64,000 nt of DNA from Adenophora triphylla var. japonica. Its lineage: Eukaryota > Streptophyta > Magnoliopsida > Asterales > Campanulaceae. Position numbers and translations under genes: made by a program. The notes beneath the pieces were generated by a model. That model saw only the letters and a program-made list of their open reading frames with translations, made no database searches and was not told the DNA's origin. Below are positions 6,991 to 33,955 of the stretch, piece after piece; positions within the stretch are counted from its first letter, which is position 1, and each line of letters opens with the position of its first letter. The stretch spans positions 558,001 to 622,000 of the forward strand of contig JAFEMH010000339.1 of NCBI GenBank assembly GCA_022495995.1, given 5' to 3'.

Positions 6991-7518
6991 CATCCAAAAA
7001 TTAATGTTCAAAAACATTACAATTTTGATCTTTATCAAAATAAATTTAAATATTTTTTGAACATTCAGTTTTAGAAATAGGGAATGTTTAAATACTACAA
7101 GAAAAAAGAAAAGGGAAAATGATTGCAACAACTTTAATCAGGCTATCAGAAATGGGAAAATGAAAATTAAAAACAAACGTGTTTACAATGTCATCGAGCT
7201 AATCCATTTTGTTATGTTAACACCAGTGTTGGCATTGGTGTTGCTTTCTATGTTGTCACACCAGTGTTGTTACTGGTGTTGCCTTATGTGTTGACATCGT
7301 GTTGGCAGTTTAAAATGAGGATAATTACTACATGTTTTTCATAAATTACAAAGTGATTGTTAATTTTTTTCATGCCTGTTGTTAGTTTGTTAGAAATGTG
7401 TTTAAACATGTTCTAGTAGCTGTACAAAATGTGACAAGTGAGTAAGAAAAAGGAAGTTACACATAAATCTTTATTTATGTGTAAAAGTGGAGATCAAGTA
7501 AATATGGTTAGAGAGTTA
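6991..7518. other. Gene-free spacer with a local gtgttg-rich run
   Basis: No gene seen. At about 7216-7312 the words gtgttggc, ggtgttgc and gtgttgcc recur several times. This resembles, but does not match, the palindrome family of Copia-B. Confidence 0.4.
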
Positions 7519-7739
7519 TCTACATGGAGGGACCGAAGAGATAACATGTAAAAGCAGTTAAGAGACTCTTCAGGTACCTTAGGGGTACATCAGATGTTGG
7601 GCTCATTTATGGAGGTGGTACAGAATGTGCAGTTGAGGGTTATTGTGATTCGGACTACTCTGGAGATGTTGACATGAGAAGATCTATGATCGGGTATGTG
7701 TTCACTCTTCATGGGTCAGTTGTCAGTTGGAAGGCTACT
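7519..7739 (+). pseudogene. Copia-A pol fragment, 5' side (RT end to RNase H)
   Basis: Read on the plus strand, this stretch encodes the RT-RNase H connection of a Ty1/Copia polyprotein. It contains FRYLRGTSDVGLIYGG, then CDSDYSGD and the RNase H stretch ending SVVSWKAT. One in-frame TAA lies near 7540. The frame is interrupted exactly at 7739/7740 by the Tat-1 LTR and resumes at 33961 with LQSTVTLSTT. Everything upstream of about 7519 is lost or unrecognisable, so this is a 5'-truncated copy. It would have supplied reverse transcription of its own RNA. Confidence 0.8.
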
Positions 7740-9267
7740 TGTAAGTACCCAAATCTGGCTCATGCCTTCCAATTTAAGTTTCCTAGCAATTTCCCAAACT
7801 TTCATGATGTTTAGGGGCAATTCAGGAACTTTTCTGTACTTATCGAGCAAGGAAGGACCTATTAGAAATAAGAATTCTGGATAGGACCTCGCTGGAAAGA
7901 AGCTTCCAATCAGCTAACTTCCATGTTTCCAAAAATAAGCTGACGCGACGAAAGATCTAGCCGGGCGGCTTCTTTTAGCGCGGGTTGGTGCCGTGCGGCT
8001 TCATTAGTAGCACAGTAGAAGCCTATAAATAGAGGCCTCCCCTACTCATTTTGATAGACAATTTCGACAGCAAAGTTACTCTGCAGAAATCTAAGCTTGA
8101 AATACAGTCTCCTAAACACCCCAAACAACTCTCTCTCATACACTAATCCAAACCTAATCTATTCCTAATAGATATTGCCTAAGAAAAGCCTCCCTTGGAA
8201 GATAGAGAAACACCAATATTGGTAATCTCTCCTTCCCTTCCCTCACCTCTAATCTATTATTATGCACTCTCATTCCCTTGCTACTTGTTGATTACTCCCT
8301 ATTATATCATAAAGTTTCAATCTTTGCAATGTAGATATACTACCCTTCCCTACACAAATGACTCATGGAGATCCTCTCCCTAGGATGAACAAGATTCCAC
8401 AAGTGGCTTGTTCTAGGGATGATCTACCAAATGAGGATGTGATCCCCCTTTACATTTATGTCTAAAAAATATAATCTTTATATGCTAAATGTTCTCCCTT
8501 TCCCTTAATCTAGTGTTTCCTATGATTGTCCACCTTATGAGGTATTAAGGACATATGGAAAGTCATGAAGATCCCTCCTTTTTACATTATGCTCTTAGAT
8601 TAATGATACTCCTTGTATTTTCATATTAAAAATCAAGTCTTTACATTAATATTATTTCCCCGTCCCAATGTTGGAATCTTTCTCTGATGATTGTCTAAAA
8701 AGCCTACTAAGCTATCAAAGACATAGGATGAATATAATGATCCAACCTTTATGTCTTATTTCTCTAGTCCCATGGTTATTGAGCATCTCTATAGTGAAGG
8801 TTGGTGTAAAGACTCAATCTTTACACTAATCTCATTACAAAATGCCATAATTTTTGCTCCTTTTAGAAGCTAATGATTCTTGGTCCCAAGATCTCCTATG
8901 ATCACTTGAGATATACACACCGAATGTCCCTACGAATCACCATTGTCTCAAAATGTAGGATTGATGGCCCAAGATTCATTCTTTTTTCTAATACCTCATT
9001 TTTGAACTTAAAATGAGTTCATTGATCACATTTGACTAAAATCTCCAAGGAAAGTTAGATTAAAACATACCAAGGCTCCTACGCCTAGATTGGTTTATTA
9101 GTCTAATGGGAGGGTCGAAAGGTCCCATAATAATGATCACAAGCTCAAAGATGAGTATGGGATCAAAATCCGAAAAAATCAAAGTCCAAGGCATCTCGAA
9201 ATAAAACCTTCTCAAAATGGTTCTTATGTTCGGATAAAGACTTGGTATATCCTTTCTCTTTCCTTAA

Positions 9268-9298
<31 letters not shown>

Positions 9299-20343: not shown

Positions 20344-20990
20344 TAATGTCATTCCAACTTTAGCTCCCTCTATCTCCGAGATAGCGCCGTAAGCTTTAGT
20401 TTCCAGCTTTAGCTCCCTCTATCTCTGTCAAAAATAGATAGTGCCATAAGCTTTAGTTTCCAGCTTTAGCTCCCTCTATCTCTATCAAAAAGAGATAGCA
20501 CCGTAAGCTTTAGTTTCCAACTTTAGCTCCCTCTATCTCCGAGATAGCGCCGTAAGCTTTAGTTTCCAACTTTAGCTCCCTCTATCTCCGAGATAGCGCC
20601 GTAAGCTTTAGTTTCCAGCTTTAGCTCCCTCTATCTCTGTCAAAAAGAGATAGCGCCATAAGCTTTAGTTTCCAGCTTTAGCTCCCTCTATCTCTGTCAA
20701 AAAGAGATAGCGCCATAAGCTTTAGTTTCCAACTTTAGCTCCCTCTATCTCCGAGATAGCGCCGTAAGCTTTAGTTTCCAACTTTAGCTCCCTCTATCTC
20801 TGAGATAACGACGTAAGCTTTAGTTTCTAGCTTTAGCTCCCTCTATCTCTGTCAAAAGAAGATAGCGCCGTAAGCTTTAGTTTCCAACTTTAGCTCCCTC
20901 TATCTCTGAGATAGTGCCGTAAGCTTTAGTTTACAGCTTTAGCTCCCTCTATCTCTGTCAAAAAGAGATAGCACCGTAAGCTTTAGTTTC
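20344..20990 (+). repeat. Hairpin minisatellite in the Tat-1 3' region
   Basis: About 12 tandem units with the constant text tttagctccctctatctc and gtaagctttagtttcca. Units come in two lengths, about 49-51 and 55-57 bp. They differ only between the arms of a small inverted repeat: tatctc-c-gagata (short) or tatctc-tgtcaaaaa-gagata (long). Some units carry point changes (gatagtgcc, gataacgac). Tandem repeats in this part of Tat/Ogre elements are known seeds of plant satellites. Confidence 0.9.
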
Positions 20991-20991
20991 T

Positions 20992-21095
20992 CAGGCGGCA
21001 ACCTCTAAATTTTCAAATCAAATCAGGTGACAACCTCCAAATTGTCAAATCAATCAGGTGACAACCTCCAAATTGTCAAACCAATCAGGTGACTC
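20992..21095 (+). repeat. Short tandem repeat, three 30-35 bp units
   Basis: caggtgacaacctccaaatt, then gtcaaatcaat, occurs about three times; the first copy reads caggcggcaacctctaaatt. Confidence 0.75.
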
Positions 21096-21618: not shown

Positions 21619-21633
21619 TTGTCGAGGGGCTTC
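21619..21633 (+). other. Polypurine-tract region of Tat-1
   Basis: gtcgaggggcttc directly precedes the 3' LTR start TGTAAG at 21634. Position and the purine run GAGGGG fit the plus-strand primer. Confidence 0.5.
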
Positions 21634-23262
21634 TGTAAGTACCCAAATCTGGCTCATGCCTTCCAATCTAAGTTTCCTAGAAATTTCCCAAACTTTCATG
21701 ATGTTTAGGGGCAATTCGGGAACTTTTCTCTGCTTACCGATCAAGGAAGGACCTATCAGGAATAAGAATTCTGGATAGGACCTCGCTGGAAAGAAGCTTC
21801 CAATCTGCCAACTTCCATGTTTCCAGAAATAATCTGACGCGACGGAAGATCTAGCCGGGCGGCTTCTTTTAGCGCGGGTTGGTGTCGTGCGACTTCATTG
21901 TAGCACAGCAGAAGCCTATAAATAGAGGCCTCCTCCACTCATTTTGATAGACAATTTCGACAGCAAAGTTACTCTGCAGAAATCTAAGCTCGAAATACAG
22001 TCTCCTAAACACCCCAAACCACTCTCTCTCATACACTAATCCAAACCTAATCTATTCCTAATAGATATTGCCTAAGAAAATCCTCCCTTGGAAGATAGAG
22101 AAACACCAATATTGGTAATCTCTCCTTCCCTTCCCTCACCTCTAATCTATTATTATACACTCTCATTCCCTTGATACTTATTGATTACTGCCTATTATAT
22201 CATTAAATTTCAATCTTTGCAATGTAGATATACTTCCCTTCCCTACACAAATGACTCATGGAGATCCTCTCCCTAGGATGAACAAGATGCCACAAGTGGC
22301 TTGTTCTAGGGATGATCTACCAAATGAGGATGTGATCCCCTTTTACATTTATGTCTAAAAAATATAATCTTTATATGCTAAATGTTCTCCCTTTCCCTTG
22401 ATCTAGTTATTCCTATGAGTGTCCACCTATTGAGGTATTAAGGACATAGGAAAAGTCATGAAGATCCCTCCTTTTTACATTATGCTCTTAGATTAATGAT
22501 ACTCCTTGTATTTTCACATTAAAAATCAAGTCTTTACATTAATATTATTTCCCCGTCCCAAAGTTGGAATCTTTCTCCGAGGATTGTCTAAAATGCCTAC
22601 TAAGGCATCAAAGACATAGGATGAATATAAAGATCTAACCTTTATGTCTCATTTCTCTAGTCACATGGTTATTGAGCATCTCTATAGTGAAGGTTGGTCT
22701 AAAGACTCAATCTTTACACTAATCTCATTACAAAATGCCATAATCTTTGCTCCTTTTAGAAACCAATGATTCTTGGTCCCAAGATCTCCTATGATCACTT
22801 GAGATAAACCTACCGAATGTCCCTACGAATCACCATTGTCTCAAAATGTAGGATTGATGGCCCAAGATTCATTCTTTTTTCTAATACCTCATTTTTGAAC
22901 TTAAAATGAGTTCTTTGATCACATTTGACTAAAATCCCCAAGAAAAGTTAGATTAAAACATACCAAGGCTCCTACGCCTAGATTGGTTGATTAGTCTAAT
23001 GGGAGGGTCGAAAGGTCCCATCATGATGATCACAAGCTCAAAGATGAGTATGGGATCAAAATCCTGAAAACATCAAAGTCCTAGGCATCTCGAACTAAAA
23101 CCTTCTGAAAATGATTCTTATGTTTGGATAAAGACTTGGTATATCCTTTCTCTTTTCTTAAATTCACACACACACACACAAGCACAAATTTTGGACCTTG
23201 GATGACTTGCTTTTGCAAGGCTCCTTGGGTGAACGCCAAACGTTCTTCCCAAGGAGTAACTT
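21634..23262 (+). repeat. Tat-1 3' LTR, first part
   Basis: Homologous to 7740-9300, with TATA box at about 21917 and keyword copies at about 21855 and 21888 (the second decayed to gtcgtgcgactt). It is interrupted at 23262/23263 by Copia-B; the remainder lies at 33766-33955. It also contains a 74-bp insertion that the 5' LTR lacks. Confidence 0.9.
23183..23256. repeat. 74-bp hairpin insertion in the Tat-1 3' LTR
   Basis: Absent from the 5' LTR, which reads straight from the CA repeat to taacttaacc. Its right half is a near-perfect inverted repeat: ctccttgggtgaacg at about 23221-23235 against cgttcttcccaaggag at 23241-23256, with a loop of about five bases. It ends two bases before the Copia-B target duplication. 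Confidence 0.7.
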
Positions 23263-24248
23263 TGAAATTGTCTATGGCTTAGAACAAGTGAGGCGAAACT
23301 CACAAGGTGAGACGAAACTCATAAGTGTTGTCCTTAGTTTTGGCAACACTAACAACAACACACACCAATTCTAGAAAAACACAAATAAATAGAAATAAAT
23401 CTAATTTGCAGCGGAAGAATTAAAACAATACACAAGAATATAATTTTTATCAAGTTATATAAATATATAACTTGATGGGTGCCAGGAGGGCAAGACCTTT
23501 CTATTAATAATATGAATTCAATACAAGGTCGAAGAAGTTCCTTAATGATAAACAATCATTAACATAAGGAACAACATATAAAAGAACTCTCTCTGAAAAT
23601 GAACACTCAAAACCTCACAAAATTATAAAAATCTATATGAAATTCTCGAGTATCGGACTGAGTGTTGCCAACACTGAATGGCAACACTTGAGAGCAGAAT
23701 TCTATTTCTTATGCAGATTTGCGTTTTCTGAATTGGATGATCTTCAATGAAGATCCACTGCACTATTTATAGGCCACAAAGTCTTGGAGCCTACTCAAAA
23801 TGATCAGCAACAGCCTTGGAGTTTGTTTCCTCCATTTTAGCCAACTCGCCTCAAATGTAGGAGACTTAGTCTTCTCTTGCTTCTCTTGCTTGTACCTCTC
23901 AGCTATAGATGCCTTGTACTCTGACTTGTTCTCCCCCTGAATAGCTAGATAATATCTCTTTTTGCTTGGTCATTAATTAAACAAATAAACACATGTTTAT
24001 TTGTTAATTTTCTCCTCTTCTTCGTGAATCACGCCTGGGCAGTTTCTGTTGATCTTTTCAAGCTCATTTTAAGCAGACTAACTACTATTAATTAAACATT
24101 ATTTTCCACATTTTTATTTGTGAAAAATACAGTAACTATTTCAGTGTTGCCAATTCCAAATGGCAACACTTGGGGCAACACCAGTGGCAACACTGATTTG
24201 CAACACTTGGGACAACATTCATGGCAACACATGATCTTAACATTAACA
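23263..24248 (-). repeat. Copia-B 3' LTR
   Basis: Reads TGTTAATGTTAAG... on the minus strand and ends TTTCA. It holds palindromic AGTGTTGCC/GGCAACACT copies at about 23326-23362, 23660-23690 and 24141-24232, and a minus-strand TATA (cctataaatag) at about 23763-23773. Confidence 0.9.
24141..24232. repeat. Copia-B palindrome cluster, 3' LTR U3
   Basis: AGTGTTGCC and then GGCAACACTT face each other across ten bases. Further ggcaacac half-sites follow to 24231, for about six half-sites in 90 bp. The matching cluster in the other LTR is at 33653-33745. Confidence 0.85.
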
Positions 24249-24263
24249 ATCTCCCCCTTAGTT
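24249..24263 (-). other. Polypurine tract of Copia-B
   Basis: The minus strand reads aactaagggggagat immediately before the LTR start TGTTAATG. It is a standard purine-rich plus-strand primer. Confidence 0.85.
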
Positions 24264-24907
24264 ACTGATTTCTTCACAAAATACCAATGTGATGATCTTT
24301 AAAAAATTGTTAGTCACACTTAACATAACATAAAAATGCCATGTGATAAATAGTGGCAACATCAACCTTCAGACAATGTTTGAAATTATTTTTCATCAAA
24401 GTATCACACTCACTCAAGTGGCAACATTATCTTCAGGCAAATGAAGTCACATAATTTCGAATTATCTCCCCCTTAATACGAAATTAATAACTAACCAAAA
24501 TAATTATTAAAATCTTAAAACAACCATCCAACCATTTAGCAAAAACCATCCACCAAAGATTGAAGAAAATTCCAGCTGAAACAAAGAAAAAAAAAACAGA
24601 ATTTAAAATTGTTTTTGTTACCAAACCACCAAAATCAAGTACCATTCGAACCAACCATCAACCTTCTGCATTTTCAGCTCCTTCACCTCCCTCTGCTGTA
24701 CTACTTGGTCCAGGTCCAGCTCCAGCTCCATCTGCTCCATCATCACGCCTTGGCCTTGATTGATCTTCCCCTATTTTGGAAGAAATCATATCCACCATTT
24801 TCATCATATCAGTACGCATATCCAGCCATCCCTGTATCACCAAGTCTATATGCTTCATCTGACTATTGAAAAAATTAAGAACCATGGAAGCATCAATCAT
24901 CACTGGT

Positions 24908-24963
24908 GCAGTGTTGCCTGAAGTGTTGCCAATCTCAGGGGCGACACTTGGGGCGACACTTGA
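24908..24963 (-). repeat. Palindrome copy in the env-like ORF, C-terminal
   Basis: agtgttgcctgaagtgttgc on the left faces gcgacacttggggcgacact on the right, with about 12 bases between. On the coding strand it encodes SSVAPSVAPEIGNTSGNT. It stays in frame. Confidence 0.8.
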
Positions 24964-25884
24964 AGCAGGGGCAGCCAAAGGAGGAGCATTTGTAACCAAA
25001 ACCTATGGTAAATCTCTGTGCCTATCACCTTCTGTAAAGTGTTTGCTAATTCTGTAATAGACAGGCTTCTCAGAGATATTATCGGCATTCCAAGGCTTGA
25101 GGTTTTGGTACACGAGAACATTGAAAATAAGCGAAGGGAAAATGAAGGAGGAGGTTTTTATTTTCTTGGCCCATGCAGCTAGGTGAACAAACACTAATCT
25201 CCCAAAGTTGACTCTTTGTTTCCTGCCTAGTTTGTATAACAAAGAAGCTTGCTAGAATGTCACCGTGTTTTCATTGGCCGTAGGTAGCCAATTTGTTATA
25301 CATATTTTGTGAAGCACACTAAACAAAGAAGTAAGATGGGTAGATTTAAAGTGTTCGGTCCAAACAGTGATTCTCCCTCCCGTCAAAAAGGTGGCTAAGG
25401 TATTCGGTTCAACCTCCAAACTCTCATCTTCAATATTAGAGAGGCCGAATGCTTTATTGATGATCAAGGGATTAAAATCATAAATATTGCCCCTAACAAA
25501 GATCTTTCCATAATGAGTGGTATTCCTATCATCAATATCCTCCCTAAGATGAGCATAAAAATTCCTAACCACACTTTCAATATACGATGACACTTTAGTC
25601 ACCGTAGGCAAAAACATCCTGTCCTCCAAAAATTGGTACACTCCTAACTCCTTGAACTGAGTCACAAACATGTTTCTTTCATTCAGAATCTTTTTCTCAG
25701 AATCTTGAACCCGCTTATCTAAGCTGGATTCACTATAAAATTCCTCGAAAAGAAATGGACGTTCATAATACCCAAAAGACTCATAATCTGATTTGGAATC
25801 TTGAGAGGGAGTAGGGGTGTTTACCTGAGGCCAGGAAATGGGAGAATATGAGGGTGAACTTGACAGGGCTTTGGACTTGGCAGC

Positions 25885-25937
25885 AGGTGTTGCTTCAGAT
25901 GTTGCCATTGGATTGGCAACACTTGGGGCGACACTGG
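25885..25937 (-). repeat. Palindrome copy in the env-like ORF, central
   Basis: aggtgttgcttcagatgttg faces ggcaacacttggggcgacac. The coding strand reads SVAPSVANPMATSEATP. It stays in frame. Confidence 0.8.
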
Positions 25938-26357
25938 CAGAAATTTTCTGTTTCTTGACTATCCGGGACTGAGCTTGGGCTAATGTTTCTTCATCATCCA
26001 TCCATGCTTCCTCATCCTCATCAGAAGATGATGAGGGCTCCTTGGTCTCTTTAAAGTTTGGGTCCGAATTGTCCTCGGATGAAATGTTGAGCGAAGAACT
26101 TGAGCTATCCTCCACATTGACAGGATCATCAGCCGTGTTGGAAGGTATTTTGGACCTGAACAATGTCTTGATCCTTTCTGACTGACGACGAACACCACCC
26201 CTAAATGACGAAGAGGCATCAACCGCCTTTCGTTTCTTGGTTTTCTTTTGTGGGGCGAAGGTGAGTTCAACAGAGGGGGTAGCTTCAGGAAGGCTTATAG
26301 AAATGGGAATTTGAGGAGGATTGTACACAATAATGTCCAAAGATGGTGAGGTTGTGG

Positions 26358-26420
26358 GTGTGGCCGAAAATGTCGCAAGGGATATTTCCATGGGCTCGGC
26401 GACATTTGAGGCGACACTCG
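26358..26420 (-). repeat. Palindrome copy in the env-like ORF, N-terminal
   Basis: A more diverged copy: ggtgtggccgaaaatgtcgc faces ggcgacatttgaggcgacac. It encodes SVASNVAEPMEISLATFSAT, with a longer central part. Confidence 0.65.
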
Positions 26421-27435
26421 AAGGAGCTAAAGGTGAAATTTCCATGGGGAAAGAAATTTGGGAAGTATTTTTGGGACTTGCCATGGAAATTGAAGGAAGA
26501 AGACGAGGAAGAAGAGGGAACAGGGGAATGGTTTGGTTCCGCCTAGAGAGAGAAGAAAGAAGAGAGAGAGAGGGTTTAGTGAGGAGGAGGGTTTAATGAG
26601 TGAATAGTAAAGGATTTAATTTGATTTGACAAGATCAAATCAAATTAAAATCCTTTTATCTCTAACAAACCCAACAACAAGCACTGTTAATCCGCCATTT
26701 TGAAAAAAAAACCTTTTTTTTTTTAATTTTTTTTTTAATTTTTAAATATATAATAACTAAAAATAATTTTAGCAATATCCATAAAATTGTGTTTTTCAAA
26801 ATTCAAACAATGAATTTTAAAAAATAGATATTTCTAAATTACAATTAGTTAGACAAAAATTAAATATTTTTGCTAAAAACCTTTTAAATTTCTCAAACTC
26901 TAAATATAAGAAAATAGACTTTTGGAAATTCAAAATTTAATTAACAAAAACAAAAACAAGAAATAAAAAAATTAATGTAGCATCTACTAATGTGTTACTA
27001 GCAATGTTTCGTGACACACAAGGCAACATTTTAAATAAAATCCCCTTGATATTTTTTCAACATATATAACTTATCATTCCTTAGACAATTTTTAAGCAAG
27101 CTTTACACATTCTTTATTTACAGGGAAGCATCGTAGTAGCGAGCTCCGTGTCCCTAGTTTTTTATTAAAGTGTAAAGCTATATGTAGTAAGTTTTATACC
27201 TTTCAAGTAGGGTACACTGTAGTAGCGAGCTCCATGTCCCTAATACTTAGTATAAAACAACTACATTATACTCCCTTTGGGAATATTTTAACAAGCTTTG
27301 CCTCTTTCAAATATCAACATAATATAAGTGACTTTGTCACTTTTAGCACAAAGGGGTATTTTAAAAACAATGTTAACCTTAAGAATGTACACATACTAGA
27401 ACAAAAAGGTCAGTAAATGCCCCCCATTTGGGATT

Positions 27436-27439
<4 letters not shown>

Positions 27440-27496
<57 letters not shown>
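27440..27496. repeat. (TA)n microsatellite
   Basis: Uninterrupted alternating AT for about 57 bases. Confidence 0.95.
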
Positions 27497-27499
<3 letters not shown>

Positions 27500-27530
27500 A
27501 AATAAATAAAAAAGGATACAACAAATACAC

Positions 27531-27570
27531 AGTGTTGCTGTCAGTGTTGGCAACACTGACGGCAACACTT
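27531..27570. repeat. Best-preserved Copia-B palindrome, non-coding
   Basis: agtgttgctgtcagtgttg faces caacactgacggcaacact across a single base, a near-perfect 19-bp stem with one mismatch. It lies just 3' of the pol stop. Confidence 0.9.
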
Positions 27571-29360
27571 GAAATAACAGATTTATAGAAAACATAAACC
27601 AAGAGATTTTTTCAAACTTGAAAATCTCTCATGGTCCAAGGCTTTGGTCAAAATATCAGCAAGTTGATGTTTAGTATCAATATGCTCTATTTGGATCAAG
27701 TCCTTTTCTACTAAATCTCTCAAAAAGTGATGGCGGATATCAATGTGTTTAGTGCGTGAGTGTTGTACAGGGTTTTTGGAAATGTTTATAGCAATCAAAT
27801 TGTCACAATACATGGTCAAGATATTACTATCAAGACCATAGTCGTCAAGCATATGTTTCAACCATATCAATTGTGAACAACAACTCCCGGCTGCTACATA
27901 CTCAGATTCAGCAGTCGAGAGAGAGACACAATTTTGCTTGCAACTATACCATGACACAAGATTATTACCCAAGAAAAAATAACCCCCACTAGTGCTCTTT
28001 CTATCATCTATATCCCCTGCCCAATCAGAGTCACTAAAACCAACCAAGTTGGTATTAGTGTCTTTGGTGAACCAGATTCCTAATTCACTTGTCCCAGACA
28101 CATACATAATGATTTTCTTGACAACATTTAGGTGAGAAATTTTAGGAGCAGACTGATATCTAGCACATACACCTACGCTGAACATAATATCGGGACGACT
28201 GGCAGTAAGGTACAGAAGACTACCTATCATGGATCTATACAGAGTTGGGTCAACATCCTCCCCTGCCTGATCTTTGGTTACCTTAAGAGATGATCCCATA
28301 GATATTTTTGAGCTCTTTGCACTCTCCAATCCAAATCTTTTCACCAGACTCTTAGCATACTTGCTCTGAGAGATAAAGATTCCATCATCTGACTATTTCA
28401 CCTGCAATCCTAGGAAATAATTAAGCTCTCCTATCATGCTCATCTCGAATGTTGATGTCATAGCTTCCACAAAATTTTGTAAACACGTTTTAGATGTGGA
28501 GCCATAAACTATGTCATCAACATAGATCTGAGCAATGACAAGCTCTTTATTATCCCTAAGAATAAATAATGTCATATCGGCTTCTCCTCTAACAAATCCA
28601 TATTCAAGAAGGAAACTTGTTAGACGCCCATACCATGCACGAGGGGCTTGTTTCAAGCCATATAAGGCTTTATCAAGTCTGTATACATGATCTGGGTGGA
28701 ATGGGTCTTCAAACCCTTTAGGTTGCTCAAAATAGATCTCTTTATCTAAGTACCCATTCAAGAAAGCCGCTTTAACATCCATTTGGTGCAATGTGATTTT
28801 GAGGTAGCAGGCTATAGCAAGAAGTAGTCTTATTGACTCAATTCTAGCCACAGGTGCAAAGGTCTCATCAAAGTCAATTCCTTCCACTTGTGTATAGCCT
28901 TGAGCCACAAGACGAGCTTTATTACGAACAATATTACCCAATTCGTCAGATTTATTTTTGTAAATCCATTTAGTTCCAATAATATTTATATTTAAAGGAC
29001 GTGGAACTAAACACCAAACCTCGTTACGGGAAAATTGTTCAAGCTCTTCTTGCATAGCTTGAATCCGAAAATTATCATTTAAAGCCTCAATCACATTTTT
29101 AGGTTCAAGAGAGGAAACGAAACAGGAGTGTTTTACCTTAGAGTATGTGGAGGACATACACACATACCTAACCATATCTCTGTAGTCAACTGGCTCCTCA
29201 TTTCTTGTTCGAACCCCTTCATTTACATCACCAATTACTTGAGTAATGGGATGATAATTTCTAATACGTGCTGGGGGATCTCTCCTGCCTTGATGGTACA
29301 CCAATCCATCTTCTTCTTCTGAGTCACTGCTCTCAAAATTTTCAACCACTATTCTGTTCT

Positions 29361-29403
29361 CCTGTGTTGCCTCAGGTGTTGCCGTTTCAGGGGCAACACT
29401 TGA
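29361..29403 (-). repeat. Palindrome copy in pol, between integrase and RT
   Basis: tgtgttgcctcaggtgttgc faces gggcaacacttga. It encodes [15 protein letters not shown] in the variable linker after integrase. Confidence 0.75.
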
Positions 29404-30193
29404 ATCTGTGGCTGCACTGGTCGAATCAGTTTCTGTTCCAGCCCTCTGTTCGACTTCTTCTAGCAAGGTCAAAGGTATATCATTTGCTGGTTCTCCTGTA
29501 GCACTCAAGTAATCGTTAAATTCAATATTTATCGATTCTTGAATCACTTTTAACCTCAAATTATAGACTCGATAAGCATGACTGTTTTGAGAGTAGCCAA
29601 GAAAGATGGCTTTGTCACTCTTGGAATCTAGTTTTCCTAAGTATTCCCGATCGTTTAAAATGTAGCACAAACACCCAAACACGTGAAAATAGTGAACCGT
29701 AGATTTCTTTCCATTTAAAATCTCATAGGGTGTCATAGTAGTATCGGGTCTTAAGAAAACTCTATTCGTAGTGTGACAGGCTGTGTTTAATGCTTCGGCC
29801 CAAAAACCTTTGGAAATATTTCTAGCAATTAGCATAACACGAGCCATCTCCATTAAATTCCTATTTTTCCTTTCAACAATACCATTTTGTTGTGGTGTTT
29901 TAGGTGCTAAAAATTCATGGTGTATCCCCTTTTTACTACAAAATGTAGAGAAGGAGAGATTTTCAAATTCTCTACCATGATCTGACCTTATTCGAAAAAT
30001 AGGAGAACAAAACATGTTTTTGATTTTAGAGACTAAGTGAGTAAATTTATCAAAAGTTTCAGACTTTTCTCGTAAGAAATAGACCCATGTATACCTAGAA
30101 AAATCATCAACTATCACATAAACATACTTCTTAACTCCCAAGCTTTCTACCTCAATAGGACCCATCAAGTCCATATGTAGAAGCTGAAAACAA

Positions 30194-30247
30194 TGTGTTG
30201 TTCCTGAGTGTTTCTCATTGTGTTGTCCAACACTGTGAGCAACACGA
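30194..30247 (-). repeat. Palindrome-like copy within integrase
   Basis: A diverged copy: gtgttgttcctgagtgttt, then tgtgttgtccaacactgtga and gcaacac. It encodes the [19 protein letters not shown] stretch between the CxxC zinc ligands and the core, a position where Copia integrases vary in length. Confidence 0.5.
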
Positions 30248-30857
30248 GTTTGCTTACCCTTTTGACAGTCACCACATATCACGGTGTCTTTGAGGTTTAG
30301 TTTAGGAATACCTTTGACGGCATTGTGTTTGATAATCTTATCAAGATTCCTATAATGAGAATGACCTAACTTTTGATGCCATAACCTTATATCATCAATT
30401 TTTGTCAAATTGCACACTGATTTATTACCAACCAGGTAGCAATTATCACTTGATATTATTCCAGTCATGACACAAAAGTTAGTATTATCAAACACTTCAC
30501 AGGTATTTTTATTGAATTTTACCTCCAAATTGTCATCACATAATTGGCTAATGCTAATTAAATTAGCAAGTAAACCATCTACATGCAAGACATTTTTTAA
30601 AGGAGGAAAATCAACAATATCCAGTGTTCCTTTTCCAACTATTTCACTCTTGCCTCCACCACCATAAGTCACTGAGCCTCCTTGAATAGGTTGGTACTCC
30701 GTTAGGAATGATTTTGTACCCGTCATATGACGTGAACAACCACTATCAAAGTACCAAGTTCCTACAATGTTAGTCCTTAAAGCTGTGTAAACAACATAGC
30801 ATTTCAGTTTTTCTTTGGGTAACCAAGCCCTTTTTGAAAATCTGGATTTCTGTTCAC

Positions 30858-30912
30858 CAGTGTTGCCGTGAGTGTTGCCCTGAGAAATTGGCGACACTTG
30901 AGGCAACACTTG
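30858..30912 (-). repeat. Palindrome copy in pol, between zinc knuckle and protease
   Basis: agtgttgccgtgagtgttgc faces gcgacacttgaggcaacact. It encodes [20 protein letters not shown] at about residues 81-100. Confidence 0.8.
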
Positions 30913-31474
30913 AAGACTGGACATTTTCTTTTGAAGAAAAAAGCAATCTGATTTTATATGTCCAGTTTTGTGACAGTATCCACATTCATTGGATTGATCA
31001 GAAATATCACTAGGAGTACTACCCTTTTCCTTGACACGCTCTTTTACAAAACAATTTTTAGTTTCAACATCAAACAAGGAAGAGGTAATACTTTCTAGTG
31101 ATTCTTGGAACCCAAGACCAGCTTTCAGAGACTTACTCAAATTGAGTATTTCATCCAATTTGGATGAACTCGTGTTGAGTTTTTTTGAAGGTGGATTCGG
31201 CTAGGTTGAGTTTGGCCTTGATTTTATCAAGTTCCAAGTCTCTCCTACTGAGTTGAACCTCCAGCCGAGTCAAGGATTTTTTAAGATCATGATTTTCCTT
31301 TTTCAAGAAAACCACCATCTTGTTCTCCTTTTTCCATTCCATGAGGAGAGACTTATAGTGGTTTTTTAATTCATGAATGAGCTCATCTTTACAAAGATCA
31401 TCCTCTATAGTCTCCTCTGAGTTTAAACCAACTGAATCACACAAGCAAATATCATTTAAAGAATCATATCTGCT

Positions 31475-31526
31475 GAGTGTTGTGTCAAGTGTTGCCATTT
31501 CCTGGACGACACTTGGGGCAACACTT
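31475..31526 (-). repeat. Palindrome copy in gag, first
   Basis: gagtgttgtgtcaagtgttg faces gacgacacttggggcaacac. It encodes ESVAPSVVQEMATLDTTLS. Confidence 0.8.
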
Positions 31527-31539
31527 TCTGAAGAAGTCA

Positions 31540-31593
31540 CAAGTGTTGTGTCAAGTGTTGTTAAATTTGGAACAACACTTGAGGTAACACTCT
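31540..31593 (-). repeat. Palindrome copy in gag, second
   Basis: acaagtgttgtgtcaagtgt faces aacaacacttgaggtaacac. It encodes SVTSSVVPNLTTLDTTLV. With the copy 15 bases away it forms a tandem pair, suggesting local duplication. Confidence 0.8.
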
Positions 31594-32759
31594 CTGTCGA
31601 AGGTAGCTCCTCTACCATGGCCTTCATGACCACTTGCTCCATCTTTTCATCTTTCTCCGTTCCTTCCTCCTCTCCATCACTAAGAGATACCCACAAATTT
31701 TTGCCCGCCTTTATTAAGGTGTTAGCACATTCATTGGCATAGTGACCCCAACCGGAACAAGCATGACATTAAATGGATTCAATGTATTTAGGATCGGACC
31801 GGATCTTTTCCGAGGATGCACGCCTAGGTGGGGTATCCTTTTGATTTGGAGGAGGACCTATCCTTGGCACAAAACTAGAGGTTTTGGCCGATTGGTCCTT
31901 AGCTTTTACCTGCACACTGTTAAATTTTCTAAGCATAGAATTATATCTCTTTGCAAGTAAAGCTACACTAGTATTTTCATCTAACTCCTCAAAGGATTCA
32001 TCTTCATCATCCACACATGTGTTCGAAGATTCGACTTTTAAGGCAATATTTTTGCCTTTAGAAGCCTCGGTTTGTTCATTGAGATTCATCTCAAAGTTTT
32101 TCAAAATGCTCATTAAGGAGTTAATGTCCATAGTTGAAAGATTATGGGCCTCTTCAATAGCTAAAACTTTAATATTAAAACGTTCGGGAAGAGTACGAAT
32201 AGCTTTTGAAACAAGTTGTTTATTGGTAAAAGGCTCCCCTAATACTTGACAAGCATTTGAAATATCAATCAACTTTTCAAATTAAGACGAGATGTCTTCA
32301 TTTTCACCCATTCTTAATTTTTCAAATTTACTAGTGAGACCTCTAAGCTTTGTTTCTCGGACACTACCATCTCCTTCACAAAATCTTTGTAAAGTATCCC
32401 AAGCATATTTTGCAGTGGGACTATTTTGAATGAGCTTGAACATATGCATGCCAACCCATTCATAGATGGCATTCAGTGCCTTTTCATTGAAACTAGCAAG
32501 ATTATTCTCTTCAATTTTCCACTCGAATTCAGGTTTGACTTGAACGTCACCATCGTCATCCGGAGGAAGCATTGGAATAGAATAACCATTTAAAATAGAT
32601 CGCCAAGCTCGAAAATCAATTGATTTGATATGCGAGCGTAGGTGAATCTTCCAACAAACATAATTTGATCCGTCTAAAACCGGTAATCTCTTTTGATTAG
32701 GGTTGGCAGGATCATAAGCCATGACAAAAGGATCTAATCACTTAGTATATCAAGTGCTA

Positions 32760-32772
32760 GGCTCTAATACCA
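32760..32772 (-). other. Primer-binding site of Copia-B
   Basis: The minus strand reads TGGTATTAGAGCC two bases after the 5' LTR end. It differs by one base from the common initiator-Met tRNA PBS TGGTATCAGAGCC of Copia elements. Confidence 0.85.
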
Positions 32773-32774
32773 AT

Positions 32775-33760
32775 TGAAATTTTCTATGGCTTAGAACAAG
32801 TGAGGCGAAACTCACAAGGTGAGACAAAACTCATAAGTGTTGTCCTTAGTGTTGGCAACACTAACAACAACACACACCAATTCTAGAAAAACACAAATAA
32901 ATAGAAATAAATCTAATTTGTAGTGGAAGAATTAAAACAATACACAAGAATATAATTTTTATCAAGTTATATAAATATATAACTTGATGGGTGCCAGGAG
33001 GGCAAGACCTTTCTATTAATAATATGAATTCAATACAAGGTCGAAGAAGTTCCTTAATGATAAACAATCATTAATATAAGGAACAACATATAAAAGAACT
33101 CTCTCTAAAAATGAACACTCAAAACCTCACAAAAATATAAAAATCTATATGAAATTCTTGAGTGTCGGACTGAGTGTTGCCAACACTGAATGGCAACACT
33201 TGAGAGCAGAATTCTATTTCTTATGCAGATTTGCGTTTTCTGAATTGGATGATCTTCAATGAAGATCCACTGCACTATTTATAGGCCACAAAGTCTTGGA
33301 GCCTACTCAAAATGATCAGCAACAGCCTTGGAGTTTGTTTCCTCCATTTTAGCCAACTCGCCTCAAATGTAGGAGACTTAGTCTTCTCTTGCTTCTCTTG
33401 CTTGTACCTCTCAGCTATAGATGCCTTGTACTCTGACTTGTTCTCCCCCTGAATAGCTAGATAATATCTCTTTTTGCTTGGTCATTAATTAAACAAATAA
33501 ACACATGTTTATTTGTTAATTTTCTCCTCTTCTTCGTGAATCACGCCTGGGCAGTTTCTGTTGATCTTTTCAAGCTCATTTTAAGCAGACTAACTACTAT
33601 TAATTAAACATTAATTTCCACATTTTTATTTGTGAAAAATACAGTAACTATTTCAGTGTTGCCAATTCCAAATGGCAACACTTATGGCAACACCAGTGGC
33701 AACACTGGTTTGCAACACTTGGGACAACATTCATGGCAACACATGATCTTAACATTAACA
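32775..33760 (-). repeat. Copia-B 5' LTR
   Basis: 986 bp, the same length as the other LTR. Palindromic copies lie at about 32836-32876, 33170-33200 and 33653-33745. TSD AACTT follows at 33761. Confidence 0.92.
33275..33284 (-). promoter_or_regulatory. TATA box of the Copia-B 5' LTR
   Basis: The minus strand reads cctataaatag. The TATA drives element transcription towards lower coordinates. Palindrome half-sites flank it, upstream at 33653-33745 and downstream at 33170-33200. Confidence 0.7.
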
Positions 33761-33765
33761 AACTT

Positions 33766-33955
33766 AACCTCTGAACCCTTTTCCTTTTTTTTTTCAAAGT
33801 TTTGAGGTAAATTAAAATGGCGTGGAGACTCCATTTTTCATAAATTTGGTGTTTTCCAACGAGGTGACTTGGCCTCAAAGCGATACACAAAAGCTAAACC
33901 CCAAATGCGGGAACGACACATCATTTTATGCGATTCGTGTGGGGAGTAATTCACA
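33766..33955 (+). repeat. Tat-1 3' LTR, second part
   Basis: Continues the LTR after Copia-B (aacctctgaaccctttt to aattcaca). It matches 9304-9493 of the 5' LTR with several substitutions. Confidence 0.85.

Follow-up and report, generated by a model that had tools for sequence, protein, structure and literature searches.

Copia-B and its 12-nt module

The window analyzed here is a 64,000-nt stretch of Adenophora triphylla var. japonica (GCA_022495995.1, contig JAFEMH010000339.1, 558,001 to 622,000, forward strand). It contains Copia-B, a complete Sirevirus-like Copia element (23263 to 33760, minus strand, as are all Copia-B features below) with TG...CA ends, an LTR pair, and the 5-bp TSD AACTT on both sides (23258 to 23262 and 33761 to 33765); an uninterrupted paralogue at about 9302 supports the element. 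The LTRs are 986 bp each and differ at 14 of 986 sites. The 5′ LTR in the sense direction (32775 to 33760) carries TATAAATA at 33276 to 33283, and the 3′ LTR (23263 to 24248) is adjoined by the PPT AGGGGGAG at 24251 to 24258, with a second copy at 24466 to 24473 and two further copies inside the LTRs. This Sirevirus arrangement of a PPT at the 3′ LTR junction plus extra copies upstream is accompanied by another Sirevirus feature, a Copia-type pol (RVT_2, rve, and others) together with an env-like ORF in the linker. The 9-bp Sirevirus PBS TATCAGAGC has no exact match in Copia-B, and TATTAGAGC at 32761 to 32769 has one mismatch. The env-like frame matches PF20167 (E = 1.1e-14), and protein searches with the whole env-like ORF and with its core region found no homologue. 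Of 7980 candidates scored in the pol search, 5999 matched, and the named ones among the 120 listed are from plants. Viral contigs searched with the pol query yielded no relative; the motif pattern matched 54 stretches in viral contigs, where a plant element is not expected. Rfam at gathering scores had no match in 23200 to 33800.

The preliminary description had placed a repeated double palindrome in the LTRs, spacer, and genes of Copia-B, and the motif is confirmed at every place it named. Exact half-sites (AGTGTTGCC/GGCAACACT) number 23 in Copia-B, both LTRs counted, and none lies in the 53.5 kb of the window outside it; with at most one mismatch, the counts are 46 versus 11. The 8-mer GTGTTGCC, again with at most one mismatch, occurs 86 times in the window versus 30.7 ± 5.5 in shuffles. 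With a strict four-arm unit defined as half-sites with at most two mismatches, 11 to 13 nt apart on both sides, Copia-B has seven (24910, 25886, 27531, 30207, 30859, 31476, and 31542), a count beyond that of shuffled sequence (0 in 200 dinucleotide shuffles), and there are none elsewhere in the window; the LTR units and those at 26358 and 29363 are less complete under this rule. Same-strand neighbors up to 40 nt apart, counted without the 3′ LTR, are separated by 12 nt in 21 pairs and by 13 nt in 2, with none at less than 12 nt and none at 14 to 17 nt. The whole of Copia-B has 26 such 12-nt pairs, versus a mean of 0.03 and a maximum of 2 in 200 shuffles. What repeats is in fact a 12-nt module whose core is GTGTTG (CAACAC on the opposite strand), typically in two direct and two inverted copies.

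The further claim that a Sirevirus-type palindromic motif also occupies the open frames of gag, pol, and env holds far above chance. Exact half-sites were counted in synonymous shuffles that keep the protein (300 each): pol has 4 (shuffle mean, 0.08; reached by 0/300), envC has 2 (0.09; 0/300), gagC has 2 (0.2; 3/300), and env1 has 1 (0.1; 31/300).

Positions of the units in Copia-B and its sister family

The modules are densest in U3, where the single unit described earlier proved to contain the motif as an array of six direct modules and one inverted (33655 to 33743; 3′ LTR copy, 24143 to 24231). A similar 12-nt array stands at the LTR start of the sister family C (7210 to 7298, plus strand), which shares 78% identity with the LTR end of Copia-B across 91 nt; in a genome search with this family C LTR start, 40 of 566 candidates were scored, at 82 to 100% identity. 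The predicted RNA leader has a unit of its own (33173 to 33200; copy, 23661 to 23688), located some 75 nt downstream of the TATA box, and a unit in U5 (32831 to 32862; copy, 23319 to 23350) precedes the PBS-like TATTAGAGC by about 60 nt. The U5 pattern is recognizable in 14 of 15 aligned loci, several of which are two ends of one element; it is partial in L076 and absent in L082. The pol/env spacer unit (27531 to 27569) directly follows the pol stop. Its 40 scored genomic matches have 96 to 100% identity and include the window copy, but this is no evidence of constraint because the matches were selected by that very stretch. The spacer unit is orthologous in L087 and L090 and not recognizable in L086, L088, and L093.

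Eight units lie in coding sequence. In gag, unit 2 (31476 to 31525) has an orthologous unit in four independent sister copies (L083, L085, L086, and L094/L074), whereas unit 1 (31542 to 31591) is absent in four independent sister copies and is a tandem copy specific to family B. Among 20 family B copies fetched, five had no match and one was broken there; all 14 readable ones have a second gag unit, which in L101 is without one 12-nt module. The pol units fall between the zinc knuckle and the protease-like domain (30859 to 30910; orthologous in 5/5 aligned sister loci), between GAG-pre-integrase and the integrase core (30195 to 30246; 4/4), and between integrase and reverse transcriptase (29363 to 29401), where the sole aligned sister copy, L087, has 12 nt more; the copies L093, L086, and L088, which are RT-less, have three, four, and five direct cores at this last site. 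The env-like units lie near the N terminus (26358 to 26418; 5/5 aligned sister loci), before the PF20167 domain (25886 to 25935; 3/3 aligned), and in the C-terminal frame (24910 to 24960; 5/5 sister loci, of which L065 and L079 lack one 12-nt module).

The assignment of the units to domain linkers stands for pol, where all three lie outside Pfam matches. The integrase site measures 27 aa versus 23 aa in 94/94 measurable homologues of the 120 listed, equal to +12 nt. The NC-protease linker of Copia-B (65 aa) is within the range of 40 to 132 in 48 measurable listed homologues, and the IN-RT linker has 94 aa versus a median of 74.5 (range, 67 to 100; 14 measurable listed homologues); among the pol linker lengths, only the integrase site is decisive. 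A coding text of V-A-P-S-V-A and A-T-L had been reported. The coding units do lie in open frames, and they encode several phases rather than one peptide. The S-V-A phase is used by the 5′ arms of seven of the eight units and V-L-P by that at 30859; among the 3′ arms, five read A-T-L/P, those at 30859 and 24910 read G-N-T, and that at 30195 uses another phase. These differences argue against a peptide function. None of the 120 pol homologues listed has two kinds of unit text, and none matches a second text pattern.

All seven coding sites compared have a unit at the orthologous place in family C, and apart from the adjacent gag tandem copy, Copia-B showed no new coding site. The sister family has coding units at the same places in every alignable copy, which speaks against the recent colonization of Copia-B first proposed; the fixed positions expected under simple inheritance are therefore largely found, but the ordinary divergence expected with them is not, since cores differ about half as often as flanks. 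Presence or absence at unrelated positions in close relatives, as for mobile palindromic elements of the DHE/RPE type, was not found. In twelve sister stretches, a script left 14 of 32 module clusters unplaced on Copia-B, and new sites in family C are therefore possible. Indels of one 12-nt module are found in L065, L079, L088, and L101 (−12 each) and in L087 (+12). Among 11 indels inside units detected by one script, 3 are of 12 nt, 3 are the 60-nt gag copy, and the remaining ones are of 1, 3, 5, and 9 nt; the same script gave 0 indels of 12 nt among 75 in flanks. In these comparisons, change has been mainly by gain or loss of whole 12-nt (four-codon) modules, with the gag unit tandem-copied once; the idea of a hairpin multiplying as a unit keeps this one clear, B-specific case. 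The module indels in unit DNA are slippage-like in appearance.

Divergence of the cores and folding of the units

Core divergence is low at all codon positions. Within family B (15 rows), cores differ by 0.034 and flanks by 0.065 (third positions, 0.022 versus 0.079), and 28 of 5000 random hexamer sets were as low. Between families B and C, the values are 0.138 and 0.33 (third positions, 0.16 versus 0.45), but choosing the cores from the window copy can by itself reduce the apparent divergence by half. The comparison among family C copies is free of that effect and gives 0.107 versus 0.221 (third positions, 0.07 versus 0.26), with cores lower than flanks in 6/6 units, although pair counts are not independent because three to five related copies represent each site. 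In general, cores have about half the divergence of flanks without a third-position excess; third positions are no less conserved than first and second ones within B and among C copies, and between B and C they are slightly less so (0.16 versus 0.14 and 0.11 at first and second positions). In the RT-less trio L086, L088, and L093, which retains modules, pairwise differences amount to 9/201 in cores and 704/3482 in flanks.

The pattern is not uniform. Among C copies, loops and spacers are also below the flanks (0.179 versus 0.221); in polNC they show no variation at all (0/160; core, 12/240), and in env_C the core (0.08) is close to the flank (0.12). In the env_N unit of the RT-less trio, variation is greater in the core (9/57) than in the remainder of the unit (6/90). 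The core and flank alignments are drawn to the motif, those of gag2 with sister copies are poor, and gene conversion between units could mimic constraint. The low third-position divergence of the cores makes it seem that they are constrained as nucleic acid rather than as peptide, and it suggests direct reading of the DNA or RNA at the coding motifs. A disordered S-V-A-P/A-T-L linker selected as peptide would fit the S-V-A phase shared by most 5′ arms; it is contradicted by the third-position data as well as by the other arm phases and by the motif's presence in the LTRs and spacer, and we regard it as most improbable.

Folding of the units is better than that of dinucleotide shuffles (mean z, −2.31 for 29 unit windows versus −0.53 for 269 other windows), and a role in RNA structure is conceivable; however, the strongest local fold lies outside the motif units, and the unit at the integrase site (30195 to 30246) makes a weak hairpin (60/300 synonymous shuffles fold equally well). 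Stem covariation is also weak: the inner arms score at 377/20000 permutations, carried by two units, and the outer arms show none. One gag1 pair is seen as C-G, U-G, and U-A, but both-sided changes in family B are confined to one pair in the gag1 inner stem, with none in five other stems. Nonstandard pairs on the sense strand are mostly C-A (17, versus 10 of other kinds), G-U pairs amount to 5, and the antisense strand has higher pairing counts in 6/6 stems. A strict hairpin-covariation reading was dropped on this account.

Known systems and possible readers of the array

VANDAL elements are a family of DNA transposons, and Ty1 is a Copia-type element. The Rickettsia palindromic element is a small palindrome that can also sit in genes and is proposed to be mobile. 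The closest known counterparts of the present motif are found among Sireviruses, whose palindromes have been on record since 2010 in LTRs and before env, with a function awaiting experiment, and include a multicopy palindromic repeated motif (RM) in the LTRs and the linker before env (PMC2829016); in maize they are reported as small-RNA hotspots (PMC10760457, PMC5311732). The Copia-B motif is likewise palindromic, has at least eight copies, and occupies the LTRs and the pre-env linker (the U3 array and 27531 to 27569). Unlike 12 of the 13 published RMs, which have a CGG-CCG core (PMC2829016), it has the core GTGTTG/CAACAC, and it differs further in its 12-nt tandem grid, in an LTR that forms no CpG island (observed/expected CpG ratios, 0.24 over the LTR and 0.26 over the initial 300 nt of U3), and in its copies at orthologous sites in gag, three places of pol, and env-like frames. 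In the main texts found by a literature search, motifs in Sirevirus coding regions were limited to env-start copies (PMC2829016).

We consider it rather probable, judging from sequence comparison, that the units form an inherited cis-acting array of putative protein-recognition sites whose cores are kept by selection at the nucleic acid level and whose modules change in a slippage-like manner. One module would be one binding site, and two direct plus two inverted modules would be the usual composite site, which can also fold as an approximately 20-bp hairpin. The array is similar to an LTR repeated motif, from which it probably derives; before the B/C split it would already have been present in the three genes gag, pol, and env as well as in the RNA leader and the pol/env spacer. 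Its evolution would have consisted mainly of slippage-like addition or removal of entire modules, with one tandem copying of a whole unit; since a whole module equals four codons, such changes would be tolerable in gene linkers. We infer selection, in place of conversion, for the cores, and a protein would read the modules. The likeliest putative reader, named tentatively, is the element's own Gag/nucleocapsid on genomic RNA, for which the units may be dispersed packaging or dimerization sites; next, with somewhat less confidence, comes a DNA-binding protein on the integrated copy. In a more speculative version that we hold with similar reserve, a dispersed 12-nt code overlies the protein code of gag, pol, and env, is read by Gag (multi-site packaging) or an element-encoded DNA-binding protein (anti-silencing), and is kept by RT-less, trans-mobilized derivatives.

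Three other readings bear on this array of protein-recognition sites. In one, the DNA-level alternative already named and regarded as possible but rather unlikely, the array acts in DNA, with a host or element-encoded protein recognizing modules in integrated Copia-B, a use also proposed for LTR repeated motifs. The density of the array in U3, the Sirevirus motifs upstream of TATA and before env (PMC2829016), and a core held more strictly than pairing are in its favor. As described in PMC5735166, VANC21 uses YAGTATTAY arrays in VANDAL21 to lift silencing; there too, a short motif has been amplified in one TE family, and its copies gain and lose target motifs in tandem. However, the VANC21 motif is mainly noncoding and has a known reader protein (PMC5735166), whereas the Copia-B motif has a putative one and lies in three genes and in a leader downstream of TATA. 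Equally doubtful is selection of base pairing as such, in RNA hairpins for packaging or dimerization. Better-than-shuffled folding, the U5 unit near the PBS, the variable gag1 pair, and the hairpins modeled for packaging and, by kissing, for dimerization of RNA from Ty1, also an LTR retrotransposon (PMC5454406), are consistent with it. The scarcity of both-sided changes, the excess of C-A over G-U pairs, the stronger antisense pairing, and a strongest fold outside the units argue against it. The signals of Ty1 sit at the RNA 5′ end (PMC5454406), whereas Copia-B repeats one motif about a dozen times over its full length. A selfish or neutral hairpin or minisatellite, spread by template switching in reverse transcription and tolerated in linkers, is improbable: the gag tandem copy and the module gains and losses agree with it, but positions fixed since before the B-C split, lowered third-position divergence of the cores, and coding sites gained only next to gag unit 2 weaken it. 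Double-hairpin elements of fungal mitochondria are also small palindromes that can sit in genes (PMC10085805); they are proposed to be mobile, whereas Copia-B unit positions are inherited.

Reading in RNA would make the preferred array of protein-recognition sites a multi-site packaging code of an LTR retrotransposon, and reading in DNA would make it a retrotransposon counterpart of VANC target arrays. As the motif appears to be held at the nucleotide level within gag, pol, and env, with constrained third positions, its function is directly testable, and a natural dissection is offered by copies whose direct modules at a single site number from one to five, together with RT-less elements that keep modules.

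Copia-B and its repeated units

The minus-strand element Copia-B (23263-33760) is complete: it has TG...CA ends, an AACTT target duplication, and a pair of 986-bp LTRs that differ at 14 sites. It was grouped with the Sireviruses because of its PPT, a PBS-like site that has one mismatch, its TATA box, its pol domains of Copia type, and its PF20167 env-like frame. Its gag, pol, and env-like regions are each broken into several open frames, and the description given here is therefore of this copy as it stands. The element is inserted into the relic of a different Copia element, an uninterrupted paralogue of which lies at about 9302 in the same window. The two relic copies (21628-23180 and 7733-9286) are 95% alike, one holding the insertion and the other representing the empty site. 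A tandem array with a period of about 50 bp (20352-20994) adjoins the relic.

The exact sequence AGTGTTGCC or its complement occurs 23 times in Copia-B and is absent from the remaining 53.5 kb of the window. Neighboring half-sites on the same strand are 12 nt apart in 21 pairs and 13 nt apart in 2 (3' LTR excluded), and each 12-nt module has the core hexamer GTGTTG/CAACAC. The typical unit combines two direct and two inverted modules, with arms of 9 to 10 nt, spacers of 2 nt, and a loop of 8 to 10 nt in most cases and 19 nt in env_N (26358-26418); in the U5 (32831-32862) and pol/env spacer (27531-27569) units the inner arms abut. Seven strict four-arm units are found in Copia-B, compared with none in the rest of the window and none in 200 shuffles; the preliminary description had named an equal number of units in shuffled sequences as a refuting outcome, and this did not occur. 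The sole further 12-nt cluster in the window (7226-7293) lies where a related LTR begins (7210-7298). The pol/env spacer also contains a 24-base direct repeat (27133-27156 and 27219-27242, 96%, 86 nt apart).

Inherited positions and modular change

None of the 120 listed pol homologues contains the unit text (best match, 60% identity over 84%), and at the integrase site Copia-B has 27 residues compared with 23 in all 94 measurable homologues (26 of the 120 were not measurable), a difference of 12 nt. The 2.48-Gb host genome yielded many copies of family B (the spacer unit gave 1104 candidates, the best 40 of which were scored). It also contains a sister family, C, for which 40 of 566 candidates were scored; where gag, pol, and env could be aligned, C is 65 to 84% identical to B. 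The preliminary description had proposed comparing orthologous positions, and there the coding units of Copia-B are shared by C in all loci aligned per site: env_C (24910-24960), polNC (30859-30910), and env_N in 5/5, polIN (30195-30246) in 4/4, env_M (25886-25935) in 3/3, polRT (29363-29401) in 1/1, and one gag unit in four independent copies, L094 and L074 being a single copy. Since they occupy the same places in C, the coding units are older than the B-C split. The U5 pattern is discernible in 14 of 15 aligned loci, several of which are the same element (L076 partial, L082 absent). The spacer unit was found in L087 and L090 and not in L086, L088, and L093; the five further loci in its alignment are not true matches.

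Positions are thus inherited, and units change by 12-nt modules. One module is absent from env_C in L065 and L079, from env_N in L088, and from gag unit 1 in L101 (family B), whereas polRT in L087 has one beyond Copia-B's number. In B a whole gag unit is duplicated (gag1, 31542-31591; gag2, 31476-31525): among 20 stretches fetched, both units are present in 14 readable copies, including L101 despite its module loss (L095, L097, L098, L106, and L109 were unmatched there, and L104 is broken there). With one pairwise script, the 11 indels inside units measured 12 nt (three), 60 nt (three, the gag copy), 1, 3, 5, 9, and 9 nt, compared with 0 of 12 nt among 75 flank indels. In twelve C stretches, 18 of 32 module clusters fell at Copia-B units and none at mapped non-unit places; the script could not place the other 14, although visual inspection assigned some of these to the polRT and env units.

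Units are also retained in copies lacking RT. In L086, L088, and L093 a stretch of about 1.4 kb containing the RT domain is missing (junctions by blastn); the RT piece matched only L087 among seven loci searched (not all of L085, L089, and L090 cover the region). At the polRT site these copies have four, five, and three direct cores, respectively (≤1 mismatch). Pairwise core differences among the three were 0/72 in polNC (flank, 81/1182), 0/72 in polIN (flank, 249/1198), and 9/57 in env_N (flank, 374/1102). The three have the deletion in common and are probably a non-autonomous lineage, one that has kept its coding-site units.

Probable constraint on the core hexamers

Cores inside genes diverge little at every codon position. 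Within B (15 rows; gag and polNC units), core divergence was 0.034 compared with 0.065 in the flank (third positions, 0.022 and 0.079), a low value reached by 28 of 5000 random hexamer sets; loops (0.096) and outer arm bases (0.101) varied more. Between B and C the values were 0.138 and 0.33, a comparison flattered by the choice of cores in B. Free of this bias, C copies compared with one another gave 0.107 and 0.221 (third positions, 24/331 and 939/3646), with core under flank in all six units, env_C being the least clear; loops and spacers were likewise rather low (0.179), and those of polNC were invariant (0/160).

The units do not all share one reading phase, and codon-preserving shuffles seldom regained the exact half-sites (pol, 0/300; env C-terminal frame, 0/300; gag, 3/300), env1 being a weaker case (31/300). 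Half-sites with at most one mismatch were absent from the middle and N-terminal frames of gag and from the RNase H frame. What sets the motif apart is its presence within gag, pol, and env, where it is kept at third codon positions. The mechanism inferred is that selection, rather than conversion, maintains the cores and that individual modules are recognized by a protein. A 121-aa open frame antisense to gag (31377-31742, plus strand) mirrors the unit text because the units are palindromic.

Pairing, and reading in RNA or DNA

Unit folding exceeds background, and arms paired in register far outdo slid arms. Single-unit folding was equaled in few of 300 synonymous shuffles for polNC (1), gag1 (2), env_C (2), polRT (5), gag2 (9), and env_N (12), and was not significant for env_M (44) and polIN (60). 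Evidence from covariation for a hairpin is thin. By Watson-Crick count, inner-arm covariation was reached in 377 of 20000 permutations, owing to gag1 and env_N, and outer-arm covariation in 15072 of 20000. Base pair 10 of gag1 changed on both sides, with a G-U intermediate present; adding C copies gave both-sided changes at gag2 base pair 10 and polNC base pair 9, alongside many uncompensated sites. Sense-strand stems contain 17 C-A mismatches, 5 G-U pairs, and 10 other mismatches, and the antisense strand pairs better in 6/6 stems (23319-33743) because the sense mismatches are mostly C-A, which become G-U in antisense; codon effects could be the cause. Sequence-specific recognition of the core therefore has more support than base pairing as such.

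Such recognition might take place in RNA or in DNA. Reading in RNA is slightly favored because the dispersed units have an inverted form, because they are spread over the entire transcript, and because two units, one close to the PBS, lie in a leader whose start is placed from the TATA box. Reading in DNA is slightly favored by the U3 array (33655-33743) and by precedents in Sirevirus motifs and VANC target arrays. As an inherited feature resembling the Sirevirus repeated motif, the Copia-B motif is ordinary; two published traits of the classical motif, a CGG-CCG core and a CpG island, are absent, and for this reason we describe it as working like that motif without classing it as such. The top local fold of Copia-B (26586-26655, z -7.6) lies outside the units, directly upstream of the env-like ORF.
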